This document shows positions 18,186 to 28,211 of a stretch of DNA of 48,440 nucleotides, in pieces (position 1 is the first letter of the stretch; every line of letters begins with the position of its first letter). The DNA lies in assembly GCF_016901575.1 (NCBI RefSeq), contig NZ_JACJKQ010000017.1, forward strand, positions 1 to 48,440, in the 5' to 3' direction. The notes under the pieces were generated by a model, which worked only from the letters and a program-made list of their open reading frames with translations, made no database searches and was not told the origin of the DNA. The position numbers and the translations under genes are program-made. Source of the stretch: Enorma phocaeensis. Lineage in GTDB: Bacteria; Actinomycetota; Coriobacteriia; Coriobacteriales; Coriobacteriaceae.

Positions 18186-19232
18186 CTAGCCGAACAGGCG
18201 GAGGCTGTTCTCCCACGCCGAGCGCGCTATCGCGACGGGATCCTCGCCGGTGCGCTCGGCACGGTCCCGGCAAAGCGCCTCCTGCGTGAGGGCGATCATG
18301 GCGGGCTCGCACTCCAGCCCACGGATGGGCTCGGGCGCCATATAGGGGCAGTCCGTCTCGAAGACAATGCGGTCGAGGGGTGCGGCGGCAAAGGCCTCGC
18401 GAACCTCTTCGTTGCCCTTAAACGTCGCCGCCCCGCCAAAGGCGATGGAGCAGCCCAGCTCGACGAAGCGCTCCATGGTGGCGCGGTCTTCGCCAAAACA
18501 GTGGAGCACGCAGCCCGCCTTGGGCACGCCGACCTCTTGAAGCACCCTGTAGGCGTCCGCATGGGCGGCGCGCGCCTCGTCTGCAGGATCGTTTCTTAGA
18601 TGAAGCTCCACGGGAAGCTCGCGCTCCACGGCAACCGCCAGCTGACGCGCCATGCAGGCCATCTGCACATCATGTGGAGCCGCCTCGATGTCGTCCTCGG
18701 CATCGAAATGGTAGTCGAGGCCGATCTCCCCCACACCGAGGCAGAGCGGGTCTTCGAGCGCCTCGAGCACCTGCCCATGCACCTCATCGGTATAGCGGGG
18801 CGCGCCATAGGGGTGGACGCCCGCGAGATAGCCCACATGGCCGAAGAGCTCGCGCTCACCCCGAGACGGCCCCGGCAGGCCCCCTTCGTCAGAGGGTCGC
18901 AGCGCGTCGTCCGCCGCTGCCAGCCAGCCCTCCAGCAGCGCGTGAAAGTCGGCGGCGGTAGGGGCCGTGCGTGCATCCGCCAGAGGATCCCAGATGCTCA
19001 CCAGCCTCCTCACGCCCGCCCTGGCGGCGCGCGCGAGGGCAAAGACGGGGTCGACGCGCCAGAAGCTCATGAGGTGGGCGTGGGTGTCGGAGATGGGGGC
19101 GAGCGGGGTGGGAAGGTGGACGGCGCGGGCCTTTTTGAGATAGGCGAGCTCAAGATGCCGCTCGAGAGCGGGGTCGCCTCCCGCGGCTTGCTCCACCAAG
19201 GCGACCTGGCCCGATGTTCCCTTCTTGGCCAT
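18186..19232 (-). CDS. TatD-family metal-dependent hydrolase
   Basis: A 348-residue TIM-barrel hydrolase, longer than usual for TatD (about 260). Metal ligands are SDTHAHL near residue 49, the conserved Glu in LGVGEIGLDYHF near residue 168, VELHLRN (His) near residue 207, CVLHCFGED (His) near residue 240 and FETDCPYMAPEP (Asp) near residue 289. An N-terminal extension of about 45 residues and an insert near 100-130 account for the extra length. TatD proteins act as metal-dependent deoxyribonucleases or tRNA-quality enzymes. The ATG at 19232 overlaps the rsmA stop (TGATG). tatD-rsmA-metG clustering is common in Gram-positive bacteria. Confidence 0.9.
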   Translation of the reverse strand: MAKKGTSGQVALVEQAAGGDPALERHLELAYLKKARAVHLPTPLAPISDTHAHLMSFWRVDPVFALARAARAGVRRLVSIWDPLADARTAPTAADFHALLEGWLAAADDALRPSDEGGLPGPSRGERELFGHVGYLAGVHPYGAPRYTDEVHGQVLEALEDPLCLGVGEIGLDYHFDAEDDIEAAPHDVQMACMARQLAVAVERELPVELHLRNDPADEARAAHADAYRVLQEVGVPKAGCVLHCFGEDRATMERFVELGCSIAFGGAATFKGNEEVREAFAAAPLDRIVFETDCPYMAPEPIRGLECEPAMIALTQEALCRDRAERTGEDPVAIARSAWENSLRLFG

Positions 19233-20128
19233 CAAGCATCAACCTCCCTGCCAGCCAGGCTCTCGAGAGCGCGTGCGAGCCGGATAAAGTCTTCAACGGA
19301 GAGCGTCTCGGCGCGCGCGGTCGGAGCGATGCCGGCGGACTCGAAGGCGGCATCGAGCGCCCGCTTATCAAATCCGTTCGCACCCATAGAGTTCCGGATG
19401 GTCTTGCGACGTTGGGCGAAGGCGGCATCGACCACGCGCCCGACCGCGCGGGGGTCGAGCGATGCCCCCGAAGAACCGTCGCCGCCCTCGGCGGGGCGGC
19501 ATCGGTCGATGCGCACCACGGCAGAGTCCACATGCGGAGCCGGCATGAAGCAGCGCGGCGGCACCTCGAAGCGCCCCGTCACCGTGCCATACAGCGAAAG
19601 CTTCACGGTATAGGCGCCGAATGCCTTCGTGCCCGGACAGGCGGCGATGCGGTCGGCCACCTCCTTTTGCACCATGACCACGGCGCGCCTGAGCGACGGC
19701 ATGGTCTCGAAATACTGAAGGATGATCGTTGCCGCCACGTTATAAGGCAGGTTCGCCACGAAGACCTCGGGCTCGCCGCCCGCAGCACCCGCTATCAAGG
19801 CGGGAGAGACCTTCAACGCGTCGCCCATGATGTAGCGGAAGTTGTCGTGGTCGGCGGCGTGCGCGTCGAGCACCGGCTCGAGCGTCGCGTCCATCTCGAT
19901 CGAGACCACGCGCGCGGCCTCCTGCACCAGCGCCAACGTAAGCGTGCCGATGCCGGGGCCGACCTCGAGCACCCGCTCCGTCCCGTCGAGCTCGGCAAGC
20001 TGGCAGATGTGCTCGATCACATGGTTGTCGATCAAGAAGTTCTGCCCCAGCCGATGCTTCGTGGCAAGGCCGAACTCATCAAGCAGCTCTCGCGTAGCGG
20101 AAAGGTTCGCAAGGGGCGAGGTGGTCAT
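19232..20128 (-). CDS. rsmA: 16S rRNA dimethyladenosine transferase RsmA (KsgA)
   Basis: Dimethylates A1518 and A1519 of 16S rRNA late in 30S assembly, using SAM. The 298-residue protein has LGQNFLIDNHVIEHI near residue 27, SAM motif I VLEVGPGIGTLTLALVQEA near residue 55, motif II VVSIEMDATLEPVL near residue 75 and the catalytic NLPYNVAATII near residue 125. FGAYTVKLSLYG and the FMPAPHVDSAVVRI segment follow, then a helical C-terminal domain. The ATG has AGGAG upstream. It is coupled to tatD by overlap. A 273-nt spacer without a recognisable gene separates it from metG. Confidence 0.95.
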   Translation of the reverse strand: MTTSPLANLSATRELLDEFGLATKHRLGQNFLIDNHVIEHICQLAELDGTERVLEVGPGIGTLTLALVQEAARVVSIEMDATLEPVLDAHAADHDNFRYIMGDALKVSPALIAGAAGGEPEVFVANLPYNVAATIILQYFETMPSLRRAVVMVQKEVADRIAACPGTKAFGAYTVKLSLYGTVTGRFEVPPRCFMPAPHVDSAVVRIDRCRPAEGGDGSSGASLDPRAVGRVVDAAFAQRRKTIRNSMGANGFDKRALDAAFESAGIAPTARAETLSVEDFIRLARALESLAGREVDA

Positions 20129-20401
20129 GGCGGTCTCCTATCTCATGCATAGCGCGAACATCATATCCGACAGGCACGGCGACGTCGCGGCCATCCTCGA
20201 AAGCGCATGGATTGTCGACGCGCACTCCGCATGGGACGCTGGCAGCACGCCGGCAAGGGTGATGCCCGCCCCCATGCGCAAGCACCTCCGGACTCGGGCT
20301 TTACCGGCGCAGCCGCCTGCACCTTGCCCTCATCCGGAGGCGCTCCTCTTCATCTAGCTCGAAACAGTCCGGACCGGCCCGCGCTCCTCGAACGTCTGCC
20401 G

Positions 20402-22024
20402 CTAGTCGACAAGACGCGGGAAGAGGGGATCGCCCTTCTCCACCGGCGCGCCTCCGGCGAGCCCGCCCCACGCGCAGGCGGAGGCAAGGTCTGCCGTAGG
20501 CTCGGTCGCGAGCGACAGGCGGCGGCGCACCTCGGCGGAAATGCTCGGCATGAAGGGGTCGTAGAGCTCCGAGGCGATTCGTATGACCTCGAGCAGATTC
20601 CAGATGACAAGCGCGAGCTCGTCGGCCTTCTCGGGATCTTTCGCAAGCGCCCAGGGCGCCATGTCCTCAATGTAGTGATTTGCAGCCGATACGATCGAAA
20701 GCACCTCGGAGGCGGCCCCGCCGTAGTCCATGGCCTTCATGCGCTCGGCATAACGCTCAAAGATGCCCCGGCAGGCATCGCGCAGCGGGGAGGGCTCATC
20801 GAACGACGCGGGGCGCGCCGGTGCGCAGCCGTCAAAGTACTTTGCGCTCATGTTGAGCGTGCGCGAGACGAGGTTTCCCCAGCTGTTGGCTAGATCGGCG
20901 TTGTAGACCTGGCGCATACGCCCCCAGCTGATGGGCGCATCTGTGCCGTGCACCACGTCGCTCATGAAGTAGTAGCGGTAGGCGTCGACCCCTAGAAGGT
21001 CGATGACCTCCTCGGGAGCGATGGCGTTGCCGCGGCTCTTGGACATCTTCTCGATCTTGCCGGTCTCCTCGTTGCGCACCGTCAAGAATCCGTGCACGAA
21101 CACGCGCTCGGGAAGCGGCAGCCCGGCAGCCATGAGCAGGGCGGGCCAGATCACGCAGTGGAAGCGGATGATGTCCTTGCCCACCACATGCACCTGCGCA
21201 GGCCAGCGATAGGCGAGCTCGTCCGCCGCGTCCTCGCCCTCTGCGCCGTAGCCCACGGCGGAGAGATAGTTGATGAGCGCGTCGACCCACACGTAGGCGA
21301 CGTGCTTCTCATCGAAGGGGAACGGCACGCCCCAGTCAAAGGTGGAACGGCTGATAGAGAGGTCCTTGAGGCCGCCCTTCACAAACGAGAGCACCTCGTT
21401 GCGGCGCGTCTCGGGCTGGATGAAGTCGGGGTGGGCCTCATAGAAGTCAAGCAGCGGCTGCTGGAACTCGGATAGCTTGAAGAACCAGCTCTCCTCCTGG
21501 ATGCGCTCGAGCGGGCGGTCGCAGTCGGGGCACAGGGGATGCTCGGGGTCCGCCGGCGCCTCGCCGGCGGCCAAGCGCTCCTCCTCATGATGGTGCACCT
21601 GGGTCTCGGTGAAGTAGGTCTCGTCGGGACGGCAATACCAGCCGTCGTAGGCATCCTTATAGATGTAGCCGCGATCGAGCAGCGTCTTCAGAAACTTCTG
21701 GACGCCGGCGACGTGGCGCGGCTGGGTGGTGCGAATGAAGTCGTCGTTGGAGATGTTGAGCGTCTTCCACAGATCGCGAAACGCAGGCTCCATGGAGTCG
21801 CACCATGCCTGCGGCGAGTCGAAGCCGTTCTTCTCCGCCGCCTCGGCGACCTTCTCGCCATGTTCGTCCATACCCGTGAGGAACTTCACGTCGCAGCCGC
21901 AGGCACGCTGGAAGCGAGCCTGGACGTCGGCCATCACGGTGCAGTACGCCGTACCCAGATGGGGCTTGGCATTCACATAGTAGATAGGCGTGGTGATGTA
22001 ATAGGAAGGCTTGGTGTGCTCCAT
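20402..22024 (-). CDS. metG: Methionyl-tRNA synthetase
   Basis: Charges tRNA-Met with methionine. The 540-residue class I synthetase has the HIGH equivalent PHLGT at 21-25, GMDEHGEK near residue 50, zinc-site cysteines Cys130, Cys164 and Cys167, WVDALINYLSAVGY near residue 245, VVGKDIIRFH near residue 279 and KMSKS at 325-329. The C-terminal anticodon-binding helical domain ends without the tRNA-binding appendix seen in longer forms. An alternative methionine tRNA-specific T-box was looked for upstream (22025-22280) but not seen. It lies upstream of rsmA and tatD on the same strand. Confidence 0.96.
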   Translation of the reverse strand: MEHTKPSYYITTPIYYVNAKPHLGTAYCTVMADVQARFQRACGCDVKFLTGMDEHGEKVAEAAEKNGFDSPQAWCDSMEPAFRDLWKTLNISNDDFIRTTQPRHVAGVQKFLKTLLDRGYIYKDAYDGWYCRPDETYFTETQVHHHEEERLAAGEAPADPEHPLCPDCDRPLERIQEESWFFKLSEFQQPLLDFYEAHPDFIQPETRRNEVLSFVKGGLKDLSISRSTFDWGVPFPFDEKHVAYVWVDALINYLSAVGYGAEGEDAADELAYRWPAQVHVVGKDIIRFHCVIWPALLMAAGLPLPERVFVHGFLTVRNEETGKIEKMSKSRGNAIAPEEVIDLLGVDAYRYYFMSDVVHGTDAPISWGRMRQVYNADLANSWGNLVSRTLNMSAKYFDGCAPARPASFDEPSPLRDACRGIFERYAERMKAMDYGGAASEVLSIVSAANHYIEDMAPWALAKDPEKADELALVIWNLLEVIRIASELYDPFMPSISAEVRRRLSLATEPTADLASACAWGGLAGGAPVEKGDPLFPRLVD

Positions 22025-22286: not shown

Positions 22287-22362
<76 letters not shown>

Positions 22363-22371
22363 TAGATTGTT

Positions 22372-22407
22372 AAGAGCGCCCGCCGTCAATAGCAGGCGCT
22401 CTTTTTG
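22372..22407 (+). terminator. Terminator after tRNA-Phe
   Basis: AAGAGCGCC (22372-22380) pairs with GGCGCTCTT (22395-22403) with a 14-nt loop, and a T-run overlaps and follows the 3' arm. Confidence 0.88.
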
Positions 22408-22439
22408 TTTCGCGATGATTCGCTCAGGAAGGAGACGAC

Positions 22440-23504
22440 ATGGCGGAAAGGATTCGCGGCGTCAACCTGTCTGGATGGTTCATCCCCGAACCGTGGGTCA
22501 CCCCGTCGCTGTTCGCGGCAACCGGCGCCTCCAACGAGACCGAGCTTCAGGCCGCCTTGGGTGCCACCACCTACAACGAACATGTTCGCCAGCATTATGA
22601 GACCTTTATCTCCGAGGACGACTTTCGCCGCATGTCGGCGATCGGTCTCAATGCGGTGCGCCTGCAGATTCCTTGGTATGCCTTTGGCTCCCAGGGAGAG
22701 TCCGAGATCTACATCCCCGTGGTGGACTACATCGACCGCGCCTTCGAATGGTCGGAGAAATACGGCATGAGCGTGCTGCTCGACCTGGCAACCGTGCCGG
22801 GCGGGCAGGGCGACTCCAACGACACCGCCTCCACCCCGCGCTCCACGGCGGATTGGCACTCCTCTGCCAACGGCCGCCACATCGCGCTCAGCGTGCTCGA
22901 GCGCCTCGCGACGCGCTACGGATCCCGCCCCAACCTTCTGGGCATCGAGCTTCTGGACTCGCCCATCATGAGCGTTCGAAAGAACATCTTTACGATGACC
23001 GAGGGCATTCCCAGCCACTATCTGCGCAACTTCTATCGTGACGCGTACGAACTCGTCCGCATGCATATGGACGAGGACAAGATGGTGGTCTTCTCGGCAT
23101 CGGGACACCCCGGCGCCTGGAAGCATTTCATGCGTGGCTCGCAATATGCCAACGTGTGCATGGATGTGCACCTTTACCACTATCGCGACGAGACCGCCCA
23201 GGACATCACCGGCCCGCGCGGCCTCTCCTCGGCGATCGCCCGCAACCGCCGCCTCATCCATGAGGCGCGCCAAGCCGGCTTCCCGGCAATCGTGGGCGAG
23301 TGGTCGGGAGCAGCGGTCTTTGCCAACGCATCGGTCACTCCCGAGGGCCGCGCCGCCTACGAGCGCGTGTTCATCTCAAACCAGCTCGCCTCCTTTGGTG
23401 ACGCACGCGGGTGGTTCTTCCAGACATGGAAGACCGAGCGCCGCATCGCCGCGTGGGATGCCCGCGTCGCCTTGGGCTCGCTCGAACGCGCCATGCTCGA
23501 CTGA
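22440..23504 (+). CDS. GH5-like (exo-beta-1,3-glucanase-related) protein, degenerate active site
   Basis: A 354-residue TIM-barrel protein with the family opening RGVNLSGWFIPEPWVTPSLF (residues 6-25), as in GH5 exo-1,3-glucanases. Also present are the TFISEDDF segment (55-62), LNAVRLQIPWYAF (70-82), CMDVHLYHY (240-248) and the nucleophile-bearing IVGEWSGA with Glu287. The position normally occupied by the acid/base glutamate (LNEP) reads L172-D-S-P, so Glu is replaced by Ser174. The usual DLHGAPG segment reads DLATVPGG, losing the His. There is no signal peptide, so the protein is cytoplasmic. It could be a non-hydrolytic or altered-mechanism homologue. ATG with AAGGAG upstream; 11 nt before rsmI. 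Confidence 0.75.
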   Translation: MAERIRGVNLSGWFIPEPWVTPSLFAATGASNETELQAALGATTYNEHVRQHYETFISEDDFRRMSAIGLNAVRLQIPWYAFGSQGESEIYIPVVDYIDRAFEWSEKYGMSVLLDLATVPGGQGDSNDTASTPRSTADWHSSANGRHIALSVLERLATRYGSRPNLLGIELLDSPIMSVRKNIFTMTEGIPSHYLRNFYRDAYELVRMHMDEDKMVVFSASGHPGAWKHFMRGSQYANVCMDVHLYHYRDETAQDITGPRGLSSAIARNRRLIHEARQAGFPAIVGEWSGAAVFANASVTPEGRAAYERVFISNQLASFGDARGWFFQTWKTERRIAAWDARVALGSLERAMLD

Positions 23505-23515
23505 CGGGAGCGCCC

Positions 23516-24481
23516 ATGACCTGTGATCGCAGCGGCCAGGCCCTGGCGGCCTCCAGCGGGGCCGCCTCAGAAACCAGCCACATGCGAGGCGCCCGCGGCG
23601 GCCTCGTCGTGGTCGGCACGCCCATAGGCAACCTCGGCGACCTCTCCCCGAGAGCCATTCGCGCCTTCGAAGAGGCGGACGCCGTCTGCTGCGAGGATAC
23701 GCGCGTGACCGGCAAGCTCCTCGCCCACATCGGAGCATCCCGCCCGCTGATCCGCTGCGATGAGAACGTGATCGCATCCCGCGCCCCCGGGCTCATAGAG
23801 CGCATGCTCGCCGGCGAGCGCCTCGCCTATGCCTCGGATGCGGGCATGCCCGCCATCTCCGACCCCGGACAGGCCCTCGTCGACGCCGCCCGCGATGCCG
23901 GCGTGCCCGTCGAGGTGGTACCCGGCCCCTCCGCCTGCGTAACCGCGCTCGTCGCCTCAGGCATCGCATGCGACCACTTCTTCTTCGAGGGGTTCCTCCC
24001 CCGCAAGGAGGGGGAACGGCTGCGGCGCCTCACCGCCCTCGCCCCCATACCGGGAGCGCTCATCTTCTATGAGTCCCCCCATCGCATCGGCGACACGCTC
24101 GATGCCCTCGCGCAGGTCTTCCCCACGCGCATCGTCGCGCTCTGCCGCGAGCTCACCAAGCTCCACGAGGAGGTCCTGCGCGCCCCCGCACCGGAGCTCG
24201 CCCAGCAGGTGCGCGAGCGCGCCGACGTGCGGGGCGAGATGGTCATCGTGGTCTCCGCCCCCAAGCAAGGCGAGGACATGCCCGCCCTCGCCGCCGCGTC
24301 GGTCCCCGAAGACCCCGAGGCGGCGCTCCGACGCGACATCCAAGAGGCGCTTGAGGCTGGCGAGCCGGCATCCGGCATCGCGAAACGGCTCTCGCAGCGC
24401 TATTCACGTCGCCGCCGAGACGTGTATGCCCTCGTGCTCGGCATGCAGGAGCATCGAGGCGCCTCGGAAGATTCCCGATAG
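23516..24481 (+). CDS. rsmI: 16S rRNA 2'-O-methyltransferase RsmI
   Basis: Methylates the 2'-OH of C1402 in 16S rRNA with SAM. The 321-residue protein has VVGTPIGNLGDLSPRA near residue 33, CEDTRVTGKLL near residue 59, SDAGMPAISDPG near residue 104, EVVPGPSACVTALVASG near residue 127, FFEGFLPRK near residue 150 and FYESPHRI near residue 179, all standard for the tetrapyrrole-methylase-like RsmI fold. I chose ATG 23516, 11 nt after the GH5-like stop with GGGAG upstream; a frame extends further 5' but only over the GH5 gene. Its last 82 nt overlap the convergent DUF192 gene. Confidence 0.94.
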   Translation: MTCDRSGQALAASSGAASETSHMRGARGGLVVVGTPIGNLGDLSPRAIRAFEEADAVCCEDTRVTGKLLAHIGASRPLIRCDENVIASRAPGLIERMLAGERLAYASDAGMPAISDPGQALVDAARDAGVPVEVVPGPSACVTALVASGIACDHFFFEGFLPRKEGERLRRLTALAPIPGALIFYESPHRIGDTLDALAQVFPTRIVALCRELTKLHEEVLRAPAPELAQQVRERADVRGEMVIVVSAPKQGEDMPALAAASVPEDPEAALRRDIQEALEAGEPASGIAKRLSQRYSRRRRDVYALVLGMQEHRGASEDSR

Positions 24482-24936
24482 CCGCCTGCTCTCCCTGGCA
24501 TCGGGCTCCAGCGCTCGATCACCGAGGTCGCTTCCGAGCACGCAAGCATTCTTCCGGGCATCACCCCTTCATGGACCTCGACGATGGTGCCCGACGCATC
24601 GATGAACGCGACGTCGATGCGCCTTCTCACATGCAGGGTGTGCACGGCGCGGCAGCGCGGAAACCCCACCACAAAGGCTCCCCGCATATGCCAAAGAGCC
24701 GGAGAGGCGATGCCCAGCAGCCGCGAGATGAAGCCGGATGCCACCACGAGCCGGGCGGGCATCCAGCCCAGAGCCTCCAATGCACGGCGAAATCCCCAAG
24801 GGTCATCGGGCGGGCACCCATGCCCCGGGCGCTCCCGCGGCCCGCCCGCCAAAGACAGACCGTCCCGGGAGAACGCCTTCTCCCTCGCATTGCGAAGAAC
24901 GGAGGCCGCCCCTCCAAAGGTCGCGTCCCGCCTCAC
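24400..24936 (-). CDS. DUF192-like protein at the end of the tad operon
   Basis: A 178-residue protein. From about residue 55 it resembles DUF192: a W-H-M-R-G segment (WHMRGAFVVGF) and RRRIDVAFIDASGTIVEVHE, matching the usual W.M..T..PLD..F.D..G.VV pattern, then SEATSVIE. The function of DUF192 is unknown. Its GTG start (24936) overlaps the tadE stop (GTGTGA), so it is translated with the pilus operon, and a small DUF192 gene in a Flp pilus locus is a recurring arrangement. The N-terminal 50 and C-terminal 30 residues look unstructured, and the 3' end overlaps rsmI on the other strand. Confidence 0.6.
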   Translation of the reverse strand: MRRDATFGGAASVLRNAREKAFSRDGLSLAGGPRERPGHGCPPDDPWGFRRALEALGWMPARLVVASGFISRLLGIASPALWHMRGAFVVGFPRCRAVHTLHVRRRIDVAFIDASGTIVEVHEGVMPGRMLACSEATSVIERWSPMPGRAGGYRESSEAPRCSCMPSTRAYTSRRRRE

Positions 24937-25421
24937 ACGATCACCCCCGGTCGCCAGGGGTCTATCGTCACGGGGCGTTCATGCGTCAAAAATGCAGGCG
25001 CTCCCAGGGACACCCCCGCGATAGACACACCCGTCGGCCATGGGCGCATGCGCATGACGCAGCGATAGGTGTGAAGCGACCCGACCATAGAGAGCAGAGA
25101 CGTCCCGCCTCCTCCAGAGGCGCTCTCGCAGGACACCTCGATCTCGACGTCGTATCCGACCATGGCGTCTTCCAGCTGGCTCGCGACCTCCCCCGCAGCA
25201 ACCGAGCCGGCGTCAGCGCCCTCCGAACCGACAGGCGACACCGCCTGCGCGAGCACGATGTCGGGGGCCACGCGGTCGAACCTCGCCACCGCCGAAGAAA
25301 AGAGCATGACATTGTAGACGATGAGCGCAAGCACCATGAGAACGGGGGTCACCACCGCCATCTCGACCGTCGCCTGTGCCCGCGACTCTCCGAGCAGCCG
25401 CGCCGCACCGCGCCATTTCAT
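24933..25421 (-). CDS. TadE-like pseudopilin
   Basis: A 162-residue protein with a short basic N-terminus and the pilin-like segment ESRAQATVEMAVVTPVLMVL (residues 12-31), which starts a single transmembrane helix (about 20-45). The rest is a predicted extracytoplasmic domain with two cysteines. TadE-type minor pilins are processed and support Flp fibre assembly. The ATG lies 6 nt after the tadG stop, and its AGGAGG ribosome site lies at the tadG end. DUF192 follows with overlap. Confidence 0.78.
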   Translation of the reverse strand: MKWRGAARLLGESRAQATVEMAVVTPVLMVLALIVYNVMLFSSAVARFDRVAPDIVLAQAVSPVGSEGADAGSVAAGEVASQLEDAMVGYDVEIEVSCESASGGGGTSLLSMVGSLHTYRCVMRMRPWPTGVSIAGVSLGAPAFLTHERPVTIDPWRPGVIV

Positions 25422-25427
25422 AGGGCA

Positions 25428-27467
25428 TCATCCTCCTGCAACCGGAGCGATCACGTCGCGCAGGCTCACCGTGAGCGGCAGCGACCCTCCGCCCGGCAGC
25501 GGAATCTCCGCCAGGGTAAACGTCGCCGACGACAGGTATTCTCCCAGCTCATAGCCGACCGCCTGGGCGATTGCCGCAGGATCGGTGGAGCCCGGCGTGA
25601 GGGAGCGCAGCATGCCCTGCACGTCCGACGCCCCCGGTATCCCCGAGCGAGCGACCACGTTTCCGGAATCGGTAAGCACGGGCTTCATGACGCTCAAGTC
25701 TACGGGCTCGAACCCAAGGGCGCGCACCGCACCCTCCACACGCTCCCCCATCCACGACGCAATGGGACCAAGGCCAAAAGAGGACAGACCTCCTATCAGG
25801 TCGTCCATAAGGGACGCGAGGCCTTCGCCCATATCGCCGTACGCAAGAAGCAGCTCGCCCCATAGCCCCATGACGTCATCGATGAGCCCGGCAGCGCCGC
25901 CGCCGGACCGCGAGCTCAGGCTCGAAAAGAATTGGGAGAGAACGTTGTTTTCTGCCGTCGCGGGATCCGGAGCCAGCACCGCCGCAGAAACCGCCCCGCG
26001 ACGCCCGAGCTCCGTCCCGTCGGCGAACGTGTTCTCCAACTCGTCGGGAGAGGAGACGTCGCCGGAGACCACAAGCGCCAGGGTTCCCTCACGTCCCGGC
26101 GGGGCGATCCGCGGGCGCTTTCCCGAAAGCACCGAGAGCGCCTCCTCGAAGCTGTCGCCAGCCTGCTCAGCATGGGTGCGCGCAGCACGCTCCAGCTCGA
26201 GCTCGCGGGTACGGCAGGCGGCATATTCATCGAGCGCAAGGGTGAATTCGCGCAGGTGGTATTCAAAGCCGTTGTCTATAGAAGTCGATGCCGCAGGCGT
26301 CTTTCCCAAGTCTCCCACGCTAAACCGGCACACTTCGCACTCTCGCGCTCCCCCGGAGTCGATGGCGGCAAGCGCAAGAGACGGTCCCGCCGCCCCCCGC
26401 GCCCCGGGACAGGAGGCGCCATAGTGGAGCGTCAGGCTCCCTCCCTCCATGGTCGAAGGCCATGCGGCATCGGTGTACAGCCTGGTGGCGCGCACTTCGG
26501 CAGTGTTTCGGGGAAGGAGGGGCACCGTCGAGACCATGGAGCCGCCGACCTCCTCGCAACGGGCCGTCTCGAGCTCTTCGAGCGCATAGGCATAGAAGGA
26601 ACGGCGGGCGGCCGAGTCGGCCTGGGCCTCAGCGCCCTGCCCCTCTGGCGCCTCGTGCGCGAGCCTCCAGCGATAATATGCGCGGGCGCGCTCGATGCCC
26701 ACCATGGGCTCCCAGGTAATGCTTGAGGCGAAGTCGGGATTCTCGGCATCCGAGAGCCCCGATAGCTGCGCCGCGCGCTCCTGCATGTTCCTGCCGTCTC
26801 GACCGCAGTCGGCGAGCCATGCCGCCTCCTTGGCGCGCGCCGTCTCCTGCGACGCCTCCGAAAGCTCCTGCGCCGCCTCATCGAGCTCCCACGCCTCCTG
26901 CTCCAACCGATCGGTGGGAACCTGGTCGCCCTCAAGTGCCGGGAACTCCGATGCGGAGTCGCGGGGAACCGCCAGCGCCGTGCCCGCAAACGAGACGTTG
27001 TCAGTTGTCTGCGCGGCACAGGTCCTCGTTCCGTTTGCCGCGACCAGGTACGGCAGCGAGCCCTCCAGCGTTTTGAGGCCCCGAGACGCCGACGTCGCAA
27101 ATGAGTTGCGCGTCTCGATGAGGCGAATCCCCGCCTCGACGGTCTCATGGGCAAGCGCGTTCGCCCCAGGTATGAGCAAGCCCACCAAGCCGGCACCCGT
27201 CACGCACAGGCCGGCGAGTCCCAGGCTCAGTATGCTCGCATCCACGACGGTGGCAGCAGTATGGTACGACGACACCACGTTTGCCCCGGCAAGGGCGCTG
27301 GCATCCGCCGCAACCTGCGTATCGCCCGCACGCGACATGCTCCACGTTGCCGTCACCGCCGAGAACAGCAGCGCCAACACCACCAAGATGGACACGGCGG
27401 CCGCCAGCGTGGTATAGGCGCCGTCTTCTATAAATAGGTCAATCCCATGCTTGAACCCACGTCTCAT
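25428..27467 (-). CDS. Large TadG-like pilus-associated protein
   Basis: A 679-residue protein with an N-terminal signal anchor. Basic MRRGFKHGIDLFIEDGAYTT is followed by a hydrophobic helix at about residues 21-45 (LAAAVSILVVLALLFSAVTA) and the DTQVAADASALAGANVVSSY segment. This TQxAADAAALAGA pattern is the hallmark of TadG/Flp-associated (TadE-N) proteins. A second hydrophobic stretch lies near 78-101. The long remainder is extracytoplasmic with a coiled-coil-rich centre (about 190-250) and several cysteines. I chose ATG 27467, which has GGAGGGGAGCT directly upstream, not the longer frame to 27563. It overlaps the preceding tadE-like gene by 29 nt. Role in fibre anchoring is inferred from family and location. 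Confidence 0.75.
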   Translation of the reverse strand: MRRGFKHGIDLFIEDGAYTTLAAAVSILVVLALLFSAVTATWSMSRAGDTQVAADASALAGANVVSSYHTAATVVDASILSLGLAGLCVTGAGLVGLLIPGANALAHETVEAGIRLIETRNSFATSASRGLKTLEGSLPYLVAANGTRTCAAQTTDNVSFAGTALAVPRDSASEFPALEGDQVPTDRLEQEAWELDEAAQELSEASQETARAKEAAWLADCGRDGRNMQERAAQLSGLSDAENPDFASSITWEPMVGIERARAYYRWRLAHEAPEGQGAEAQADSAARRSFYAYALEELETARCEEVGGSMVSTVPLLPRNTAEVRATRLYTDAAWPSTMEGGSLTLHYGASCPGARGAAGPSLALAAIDSGGARECEVCRFSVGDLGKTPAASTSIDNGFEYHLREFTLALDEYAACRTRELELERAARTHAEQAGDSFEEALSVLSGKRPRIAPPGREGTLALVVSGDVSSPDELENTFADGTELGRRGAVSAAVLAPDPATAENNVLSQFFSSLSSRSGGGAAGLIDDVMGLWGELLLAYGDMGEGLASLMDDLIGGLSSFGLGPIASWMGERVEGAVRALGFEPVDLSVMKPVLTDSGNVVARSGIPGASDVQGMLRSLTPGSTDPAAIAQAVGYELGEYLSSATFTLAEIPLPGGGSLPLTVSLRDVIAPVAGG

Positions 27468-27957
27468 AGCTCCCCTCCAGCCATTCCGGCCTCCCCGCAT
27501 AGGTGACCTCGACCTTGAGCTCGACATCACCCTGCGCATTTCTCGTTCCGAATGCGCCCACAAATGCTCCGAGCACCGGCAGCGGACTCACATGCCCCGT
27601 AATCGAAACAGCGACCTCGCCTCCCGTATCCACCGCCGGCGTAAGCTCGATGTCCCACGAGAGCGGACCGCCCGCATGAAAGATCGAGATGTCAGGCACC
27701 GCCTCGAGACGGCGAAGCGCAAACGCCTCGCATGCCTCCATCCCCTCTTCCGAGGTGATCATGAGCCGAGCCGTTTGCGATGCCGCCGACTCCATGACGC
27801 CCCGGGTGTAGAGCAGACATACCGGCTGCAACGCCAACAGGAGCAGCGTGAGAAAGCACGGCAGCAGCATCGCCGCCTCGACGGTCGCCTGCGCGCACGA
27901 TTCACGCAGCAGGCTAGAAGAGCGCGATATCCAGCGGCCCGGTGCCCCCAAGCGCAT
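27439..27957 (-). CDS. TadE-like pseudopilin (second)
   Basis: About 172 residues. The core has ESCAQATVEAAMLLPCFLTL near residue 24, entering a transmembrane helix of about 25 residues, then an extracytoplasmic domain (VMESAASQTARLMITSEE, later GDVELKVEVTYAGRPEW). The start is uncertain: the only ATG in frame near the coding core is 27957, inside the preceding gene (44-nt overlap) with a weak GAGG upstream. It resembles the first TadE-like protein in having the AQATVE motif. It presumably functions as a minor pilin. Confidence 0.7.
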   Translation of the reverse strand: MRLGAPGRWISRSSSLLRESCAQATVEAAMLLPCFLTLLLLALQPVCLLYTRGVMESAASQTARLMITSEEGMEACEAFALRRLEAVPDISIFHAGGPLSWDIELTPAVDTGGEVAVSITGHVSPLPVLGAFVGAFGTRNAQGDVELKVEVTYAGRPEWLEGSYETWVQAWD

Positions 27958-28159
27958 GGGAGGCGGCGTCCTCGACGAGGCGTGCGAGCACTCCGTCCTC
28001 CCCGGCATGCCACAGCAGCGCCAAGGTCGTGATGATGGCCATGAGAGCGAACAGCGTGAGCGCATACTCGACGGTGCCCTGGGCGAGCTCCTCAAATGCC
28101 GCGCACGACGAGACCCCGCCGGCATGTTCGACCGTCTTCCCAGAACTTGCCTTGGACAT
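27914..28159 (-). CDS. Small pilin-like protein (DUF4244-like)
   Basis: An 81-residue protein with one hydrophobic segment, beginning in the pilin-like FEELAQGTVEYALTLFALMA (about residues 22-41) and ending near position 50. It ends in a short amphipathic tail (LARLVEDAASHALG). Size and order resemble the small DUF4244-type Flp pilins found between tad assembly and tadE genes in actinobacteria. ATG 28159 has AGGAGGGAG upstream. It may be a second, minor pilin subunit beside the Flp gene at 28935-29189. Confidence 0.6.
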   Translation of the reverse strand: MSKASSGKTVEHAGGVSSCAAFEELAQGTVEYALTLFALMAIITTLALLWHAGEDGVLARLVEDAASHALGGTGPLDIALF

Positions 28160-28211
28160 GGCATGCTCTCCCTCCTCACCGTCTGGAGCCGTCTCGCCAC
28201 CCACGGCACGG

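Follow-up and report, generated by a model that had tools for sequence, protein, structure and literature searches.

A GH5_9-like protein with an incomplete catalytic site, encoded next to rsmI in Coriobacteriaceae and Atopobiaceae

The GH5-like gene and its neighbours in the window

The window, by which we mean the whole stretch of 48,440 nucleotides of Enorma phocaeensis DNA analysed in this study, carries on its forward strand an uninterrupted open reading frame (22440-23504) for a protein of 354 amino acids, preceded by an AAGGAG ribosome-binding site (22429-22434, forward strand, as read from the sequence) located 5 bases upstream of the ATG. Pfam, PDB and fold searches identified the product as a GH5_9-like protein with an incomplete GH5 catalytic site. 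It matched PF00150 with 29.0 bits (cut-off, 23.5), and the same model matched all 43 members of set A1 at E up to 0.01; the Pfam search of the 354-residue protein gave no second domain, indicating a single-domain protein, and no model matched in the NCBIfam search. The closest solved structure by sequence was 6zb9, an exo-beta-1,3-glucanase from moose rumen (E 1.5e-39), followed by the fungal Exg enzymes. The tentative placement in GH5_9, which as defined in 2012 held fungal sequences only (available part of PMC3526467), was made from these closest PDB relatives, all exo-beta-1,3-glucanases with Candida Exg (GH5_9) among them, and not from a CAZy subfamily model. The N-terminus reads MAERIRGVNLSGW and an in-frame stop codon lies 8 codons 5' of the start, in good agreement with the claim of the earlier note on this DNA that a signal peptide is absent.

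The gene adjoins rsmI, as the same note had pointed out. The rsmI gene (23516-24481, forward strand; named by homology, Pfam TP_methylase), a member of the 16S rRNA 2'-O-methyltransferase family, starts after a gap of 11 bp from the stop codon of the GH5-like gene. RsmI acts in methylation of C1402 of 16S rRNA. On the upstream side, tatD, rsmA and metG lie on the opposite strand (18186-22024, reverse), followed by a tRNA-Phe gene with the anticodon GAA (22287-22362, forward). The interval between this tRNA gene and the GH5-like gene contains a terminator-like hairpin with a T-run (22372-22407, forward; z -2.65 for the 75-nt stretch), so that the GH5-like gene and rsmI should be transcribed either by read-through or from a promoter located in a space of about 30 bases. 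The minus-strand genes downstream of rsmI (24933-28209) resemble those for TadE/TadG-type pilus proteins by eye, and similar genes were noticed, again by eye, upstream of the GH5-like gene in three other loci (L020, L048 and L066).

Active-site residues and predicted fold

As the reference for the active site we used the eight residues described as conserved among Exg enzymes in the available part of PMC10304600: R92, H135, N191, E192, H253, Y255, E292 and W363. The numbering of the Candida chain was checked on the alignment, where the first seven of these fall on the expected letters, and the correspondence of W363 was taken from a second aligned stretch of the PDB sequence match. The equivalent residues of the window protein are R74, A117, D173, S174, H244, Y246, E287 and Q328, four of the eight being retained. 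GH5 enzymes carry two catalytic Glu residues, the acid/base after beta4 and the nucleophile on beta7, and at these sites the window protein has S174 and E287.

The three substitutions and retentions claimed in the earlier note were indeed found on the alignment. The acid/base Glu is replaced by Ser, since residues D173-S174-P175 (22956-22964, forward; S174 codon, 22959-22961) occupy the place of N-E-P and align gap-free with GIELLNEP of Candida Exg (E192), GIEPINEP of 6zb9 and AIEAINEP of 8z2w; with no gap at the motif, the register of position 174 is beyond doubt. The nucleophile E287 (23298-23300, forward), corresponding to Exg E292, is kept within VGEWS, and the His of DLHGAPG is replaced by A117 (22788-22790, forward) within DLATVPG. 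Two further losses were identified, namely, the Trp of the pocket floor (W363 of Exg), which is Q328 (23421-23423, forward), and the aromatic clamp, for which F144 and F258 together with N146 are replaced by S126, R249 and D128, respectively. Retained are R74 (22659-22661, forward), E17 (22488-22490, forward; Exg E27), and H244 and Y246 (23169-23177, forward). The possibility of a register error, or of another Glu placed at the acid/base site, was ruled out by the gap-free alignment of the motif. As candidate substitutes, E170 within GIELL is a separate invariant Glu that is present in the canonical enzymes too, while E302, conserved in 138 of 138 family members, is probably structural because it sits at a T-P-E helix start and has a matching Glu in 8z2w.

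The AlphaFold2 model of the window protein, made with 43 aligned relatives (mean pLDDT 81.8, pTM 0.86), is a predicted GH5_9-like barrel. Its top structural matches, as ranked by Foldseek only, were 6zb8 (Z 37.3, rmsd 2.6, 327 residues) and 6zb9 (Z 37.0, rmsd 2.4, 323 residues), followed by 8z2y and then Candida Exg; loop 120-135, which would carry part of the clamp, was predicted with pLDDT below 50. Comparison with Exg-type GH5 structures, proposed beforehand as a check, supports a predicted TIM barrel alike in fold to the GH5_9 exo-beta-1,3-glucanases (6zb9; Candida Exg, 1cz1; Aspergillus oryzae, 8z2w), with Z of 34 to 37 over 320-329 residues at 27-29% identity. The PF00150 score and the Z of 37.3 to 6zb8 place the protein in GH5 by descent, and the Pfam match, the PDB sequence relatives and the predicted barrel agree on the GH5-like identity that had been assigned to it. 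The same barrel was predicted for a relative (L068) with Asp at position 174 and Lys at 287 (pTM 0.81, Z 34.0 to 6zb8).

Distribution, rsmI linkage and catalytic-site turnover

A scan of 84,980 species genomes yielded 79 distinct loci, all from Coriobacteriia by title. In the order-level search of 272 genomes, 159 were matched, including 58/58 of Coriobacteriaceae, 101/104 of Atopobiaceae (98 of the 104 clearly, at E below 1e-70) and 0/110 of the others, with no stop codon inside any match listed; a class-wide profile search of 296 genomes gave only two matches that belong to neither family (E near 1e-4). The GH5-like gene behaves as a core gene of Coriobacteriaceae and Atopobiaceae. True absences were found in three Atopobiaceae genomes of one genus (G060-G062), which carry rsmI and hence indicate that rsmI can do without the GH5-like gene. 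Three other candidate losses were set aside, two of them (G063 and G064) being cut by contig ends and the third (G099) having an assembly that misses rsmI as well.

As for the selection on the gene, we determined the median pairwise dN/dS (Nei-Gojobori, 0.15<dS<1), a rough measure in GC-rich genomes, which was 0.215 for the GH5-like gene (361 pairs) versus 0.238 for rsmI (358 pairs) in Coriobacteriaceae, and 0.456 (1269 pairs) versus 0.343 (958 pairs) in Atopobiaceae, with 479 of the 1269 Atopobiaceae pairs above 0.5 for the GH5-like gene.

In 186 of 190 loci, rsmI is the next gene downstream, in the same orientation and no more than 300 bp away; one of the four exceptions is a canonical paralogue (L004). 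Among the distinct family members the adjacency holds in 138 of 138 if the distance limit is widened for L136, L145 and L147, of which the odd distances are presumed to be a first-domain artefact. In most relatives metG, rsmA and tatD follow rsmI, all on one strand. The location of metG upstream on the opposite strand, seen in the window and in two other loci (L002 and L005), reflects a local inversion in the genus of the window. A tie to tRNA-Phe was rejected, because this gene lies within 700 bp upstream in just 39 of 139 distinct loci, some of which have shorter flanks. Upstream of the GH5-like gene, 41/71 Atopobiaceae loci carry a PSP1-family (RicT-like) gene, for which the Pfam score is slightly under the cut-off, the protein tested being cut by the locus end, and 33/71 carry a PTPS-family (QueD-like) gene. 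Neither is upstream in any of 47 Coriobacteriaceae loci, and with QueD at 33/71 against 0/47 a tie to queuosine synthesis is an idea only. In many Atopobiaceae loci (L118-L121, L125-L127, L130 and L133) the QueD-like gene directly precedes the GH5-like gene and rsmI, leaving the GH5-like gene flanked by two RNA-modification genes. Clustering of the upstream open frames yielded antisense noise for the most part and was set aside.

For analysis of the catalytic positions we used the whole set of 145 distinct proteins from the fetched loci, which covers all but about 18 of the 98 clearly matching Atopobiaceae genomes; the two groups were separated by score to the window protein, and the names Coriobacteriaceae and Atopobiaceae were given to them after the named loci. 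One genome labelled Coriobacteriaceae carries on a 3765-base contig a second, Atopobiaceae-like orthologue (L169, G109:C124:522-1544), either a contamination or a transferred copy, which was counted with Atopobiaceae since the grouping follows the score. Another member (L164, G086:C1:1514616-1515638) lies in a stop-to-stop frame of 842 codons, probably a GC-rich open frame and possibly a fusion.

The eight Exg residues are conserved to very different levels among the 145 proteins: R92 in 145, H253 in 139, Y255 in 106, E292 in 76, E192 in 42, N191 in 7, and H135 and W363 in none. E17 is retained in 138 of 145, and the best-preserved member keeps six of the eight residues that mark a GH5_9 exo-beta-1,3-glucanase. 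Position 174 is occupied by E (42), S (37), D (32), T (22), A (7), N (2) and R, G or Q (1 each); position 287 by E (76), K (50), A (14), S (3) and T (2); position 328 by Q (128), N (14) and R, S or E (1 each); and Asp replaces Asn at 173 in 123 of 145. Glu is thus present at both catalytic sites in 18 members, at 287 only in 58, at 174 only in 24, and at neither in 45. The earlier note had named homologues with NEP as grounds against the loss. Such homologues do exist, as one member (L073) has NEP and 18/145 have both Glu, but the His and the Trp are missing from every one of the 18. Conservation of DSP, for which the note had asked, holds in part: the DSP/DTP state is typical of Coriobacteriaceae, whereas the full machinery is lost throughout the family.

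Separate analysis of the two groups gave S 35, T 20 and A 2 at position 174 and E 56 and A 1 at position 287 for the 57 distinct Coriobacteriaceae sequences. With Ser, Thr or Ala at 174 in 57/57, the substitution in the window protein is neither chance nor a sequencing error. Among the 88 distinct Atopobiaceae sequences, position 287 is Glu in 20 and Lys, Ala, Ser or Thr in 68. One Coriobacteriaceae orthologue (L179, 73% identity) has Ala at both catalytic positions.

Canonical paralogues of GH5_9 with the catalytic set (L004 and L238-L242) were found in some Coriobacteriaceae and Atopobiaceae genomes, L004 being without a nearby rsmI. Together with the three PDB proteins these form a canonical set of nine, in the alignment of which Candida Exg is partial and 6zb9 is unaligned at W363. 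The seven pocket residues other than W363 are kept in 9/9, and W363 is Trp in seven, Phe in one (L004) and unaligned in one. Since paralogues from the same families keep the residues, except for the Phe of L004, the loss is specific to the rsmI-linked family. A total of 44 columns are invariant in the canonical set, of which 12 are invariant in the rsmI-linked family, and position 174 ranks fifth, 287 ninth and 117 eleventh in variability among these 44. Invariant in 145/145 are R74, E170, D242, W288, R196, R200, T300 and W330, and the constant residues that are family-specific include W79, R146, R196, R200, T300, A306, R342 and E349.

On a quick tree of 112 rows (109 of the family plus a long-branched outgroup of 3; 95% identity cut), made with columns 117, 173, 174 and 287 excluded, the minimum number of changes was 26 at 174, 24 at 117 and 7 at 287, and 0 at E170 and D242. 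Scoring Glu against not-Glu gave 13 changes at 174 and 2 at 287, the latter indicating that the nucleophile was probably lost at least two times, one loss falling in a large clade of Atopobiaceae and the other in L179.

Interpretation and comparison with known systems

Constant features of the family are the fold, some of the -1 pocket (E17, R74 and H244) and the family-specific residues; the machinery is incomplete while the gene and fold are conserved, as expected of a pseudoenzyme. The relatives at the same locus without nucleophile, acid/base or both indicate that GH5 chemistry is not what selection keeps constant family-wide. We therefore favour, with a probability of roughly two in three, the reading that the GH5-like protein descends from a GH5_9-type exo-beta-glucanase and is cytoplasmic and non-catalytic, with a putative binding or scaffolding role, linked to rsmI. 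The protein retains the predicted TIM barrel and, from the -1 sugar pocket, E17, R74, H244 and Y246; it has lost the catalytic His together with the acid/base Glu, and also the Trp of the pocket floor and the substrate clamp, with repeated replacement of the catalytic positions in relatives. Glycoside hydrolysis by the GH5 double-displacement mechanism would be absent. The remodelled pocket might accept a small glycoside or a nucleoside-like ligand; alternatively, the conserved surface might bind a partner protein or RNA. Co-expression with rsmI would then reflect a role of this binding in translation or its regulation, a link to translation that we infer from gene order alone. Among the roles offered in the earlier note, binding without cleaving is the putative one that best fits the data, as gene, fold and linkage to rsmI all outlast the catalytic losses, whereas transglycosylation or action on activated substrates is disfavoured as the conserved role by the loss of the nucleophile in 68/88 Atopobiaceae sequences and by L179 without both residues.

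Several observations stand against the pseudoenzyme reading. The order at the two sites in Coriobacteriaceae (E287 in 56/57, Ser or Thr at 174 in 55/57) exceeds that of free drift, the near-invariance of E17, R74 and H244 suggests that some pocket chemistry may be possible, 18/145 members have both Glu, the Atopobiaceae dN/dS is above that of rsmI (0.456 vs 0.343), and G060-G062 have rsmI without the GH5-like gene.

The first of these observations leads to the strongest remaining argument for chemistry, namely, that E287 persists in 56/57 Coriobacteriaceae sequences despite loss of the acid/base in 57/57. The Coriobacteriaceae protein might be a nucleophile-only enzyme, in which E287 moves a glycosyl group from a donor with a good leaving group to an acceptor, or in which an outside base is used as in the plant myrosinases (GH1). 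The retention of E17, R74, H244 and Y246 agrees with this proposal, but H135, N191, W363 and the clamp of F144, N146 and F258 are lost as well, K, A, S or T takes position 287 in 68/88 Atopobiaceae orthologues within the same rsmI setting, and L179 at 73% identity has Ala at both sites, so that we consider it unlikely.

Also improbable in our estimation is neofunctionalisation, by which an enzyme would perform a different reaction with other residues of the remodelled pocket; the substrate could, for instance, be a nucleoside or a nucleotide sugar connected with RNA modification. The charged residues E170, D242, R74, H244, R180 and E302 are invariant or nearly so, Asp replaces Asn at 173 in 123/145, and QueD-like and RicT-like genes lie upstream in 33/71 and 41/71 Atopobiaceae loci, respectively. 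However, E170 and D242 are equally invariant in canonical GH5_9, T300 and E302 resemble a helix capping pair of which E302 has its counterpart in 8z2w, and neither upstream gene occurs in the 47 Coriobacteriaceae loci.

That the protein is an ordinary active GH5 enzyme with a substituted acid/base, as the fold, the Pfam match and the kept E287 might suggest, is very hard to reconcile with four of the eight conserved pocket residues missing from the window protein and nine residue types (E, S, D, T, A, N, R, G and Q) at position 174 family-wide. A decaying pseudogene, which would account for the lost catalytic residues, is the least credible of all, being refuted by conservation across two families, by the matches listed being free of internal stop codons, and by a dN/dS that is well under 1 and rsmI-like in Coriobacteriaceae.

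On the pseudoenzyme reading, a more specific and tentative proposal, which we regard as possible rather than probable, is that of a pseudo-glycosidase, lineage-defining for Coriobacteriaceae and Atopobiaceae, that passed from glucan breakdown to the translation apparatus: made together with RsmI, it might, by binding rRNA, RsmI or a nucleoside-like ligand, tune the methylation of 16S C1402 or couple it to sugar status. The linkage to rsmI gives a concrete hypothesis for the present job of the re-used fold. Pfam-style annotation would label the family as cellulases, and thereby as carbohydrate-degrading capacity of Collinsella and its relatives, which is probably wrong. The natural series with both Glu, one or none, on one fold and at one genomic place, makes the step from enzyme to binder directly testable.

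With the GH5_9 exo-beta-1,3-glucanases the window protein has in common R92, H253, Y255 and E292, but it differs from them in the loss of H135, N191, E192, W363 and the Phe clamp, in the lack of a signal peptide and in the fixed linkage to rsmI. Non-catalytic GH5 proteins are already known (GH5_30 and Rsi24C-GH5). The available part of PMC3526467 describes, as GH5 proteins without essential residues, the fungal GH5_30, a Xanthomonas group and a group near GH5_8; those other than GH5_30 have extra modules or are lipoproteins, unlike the single-domain window protein. The same part describes Rsi24C-GH5 of Clostridium thermocellum, a GH5 module without the acid/base that serves as a carbohydrate (cellulose) sensor. 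Compared by description only, Rsi24C-GH5 is a module that lies outside the cell and is linked to an anti-sigma factor inside it, whereas the window protein is cytoplasmic, and its single domain and missing signal peptide do not fit an extracellular GH5 fused to an anti-sigma factor. A precedent, though only that, is offered by MKIP1, described in the available part of PMC13172542 as an inactive homologue of starch-branching enzyme in plastid RNA splicing: it likewise has the fold of a carbohydrate enzyme, has lost activity and works with RNA machinery, but it derives from a different enzyme, has its own insertion of 150 residues and binds MatK. In the literature searched, in which papers on Collinsella, GH5 and CAZymes were covered in part, none was recognised as describing an rsmI-linked GH5-like family. 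What is new in comparison with these systems is a lineage, spanning two families, of single-domain cytoplasmic GH5 pseudoenzymes with repeated turnover of the catalytic site and a fixed linkage to rsmI.
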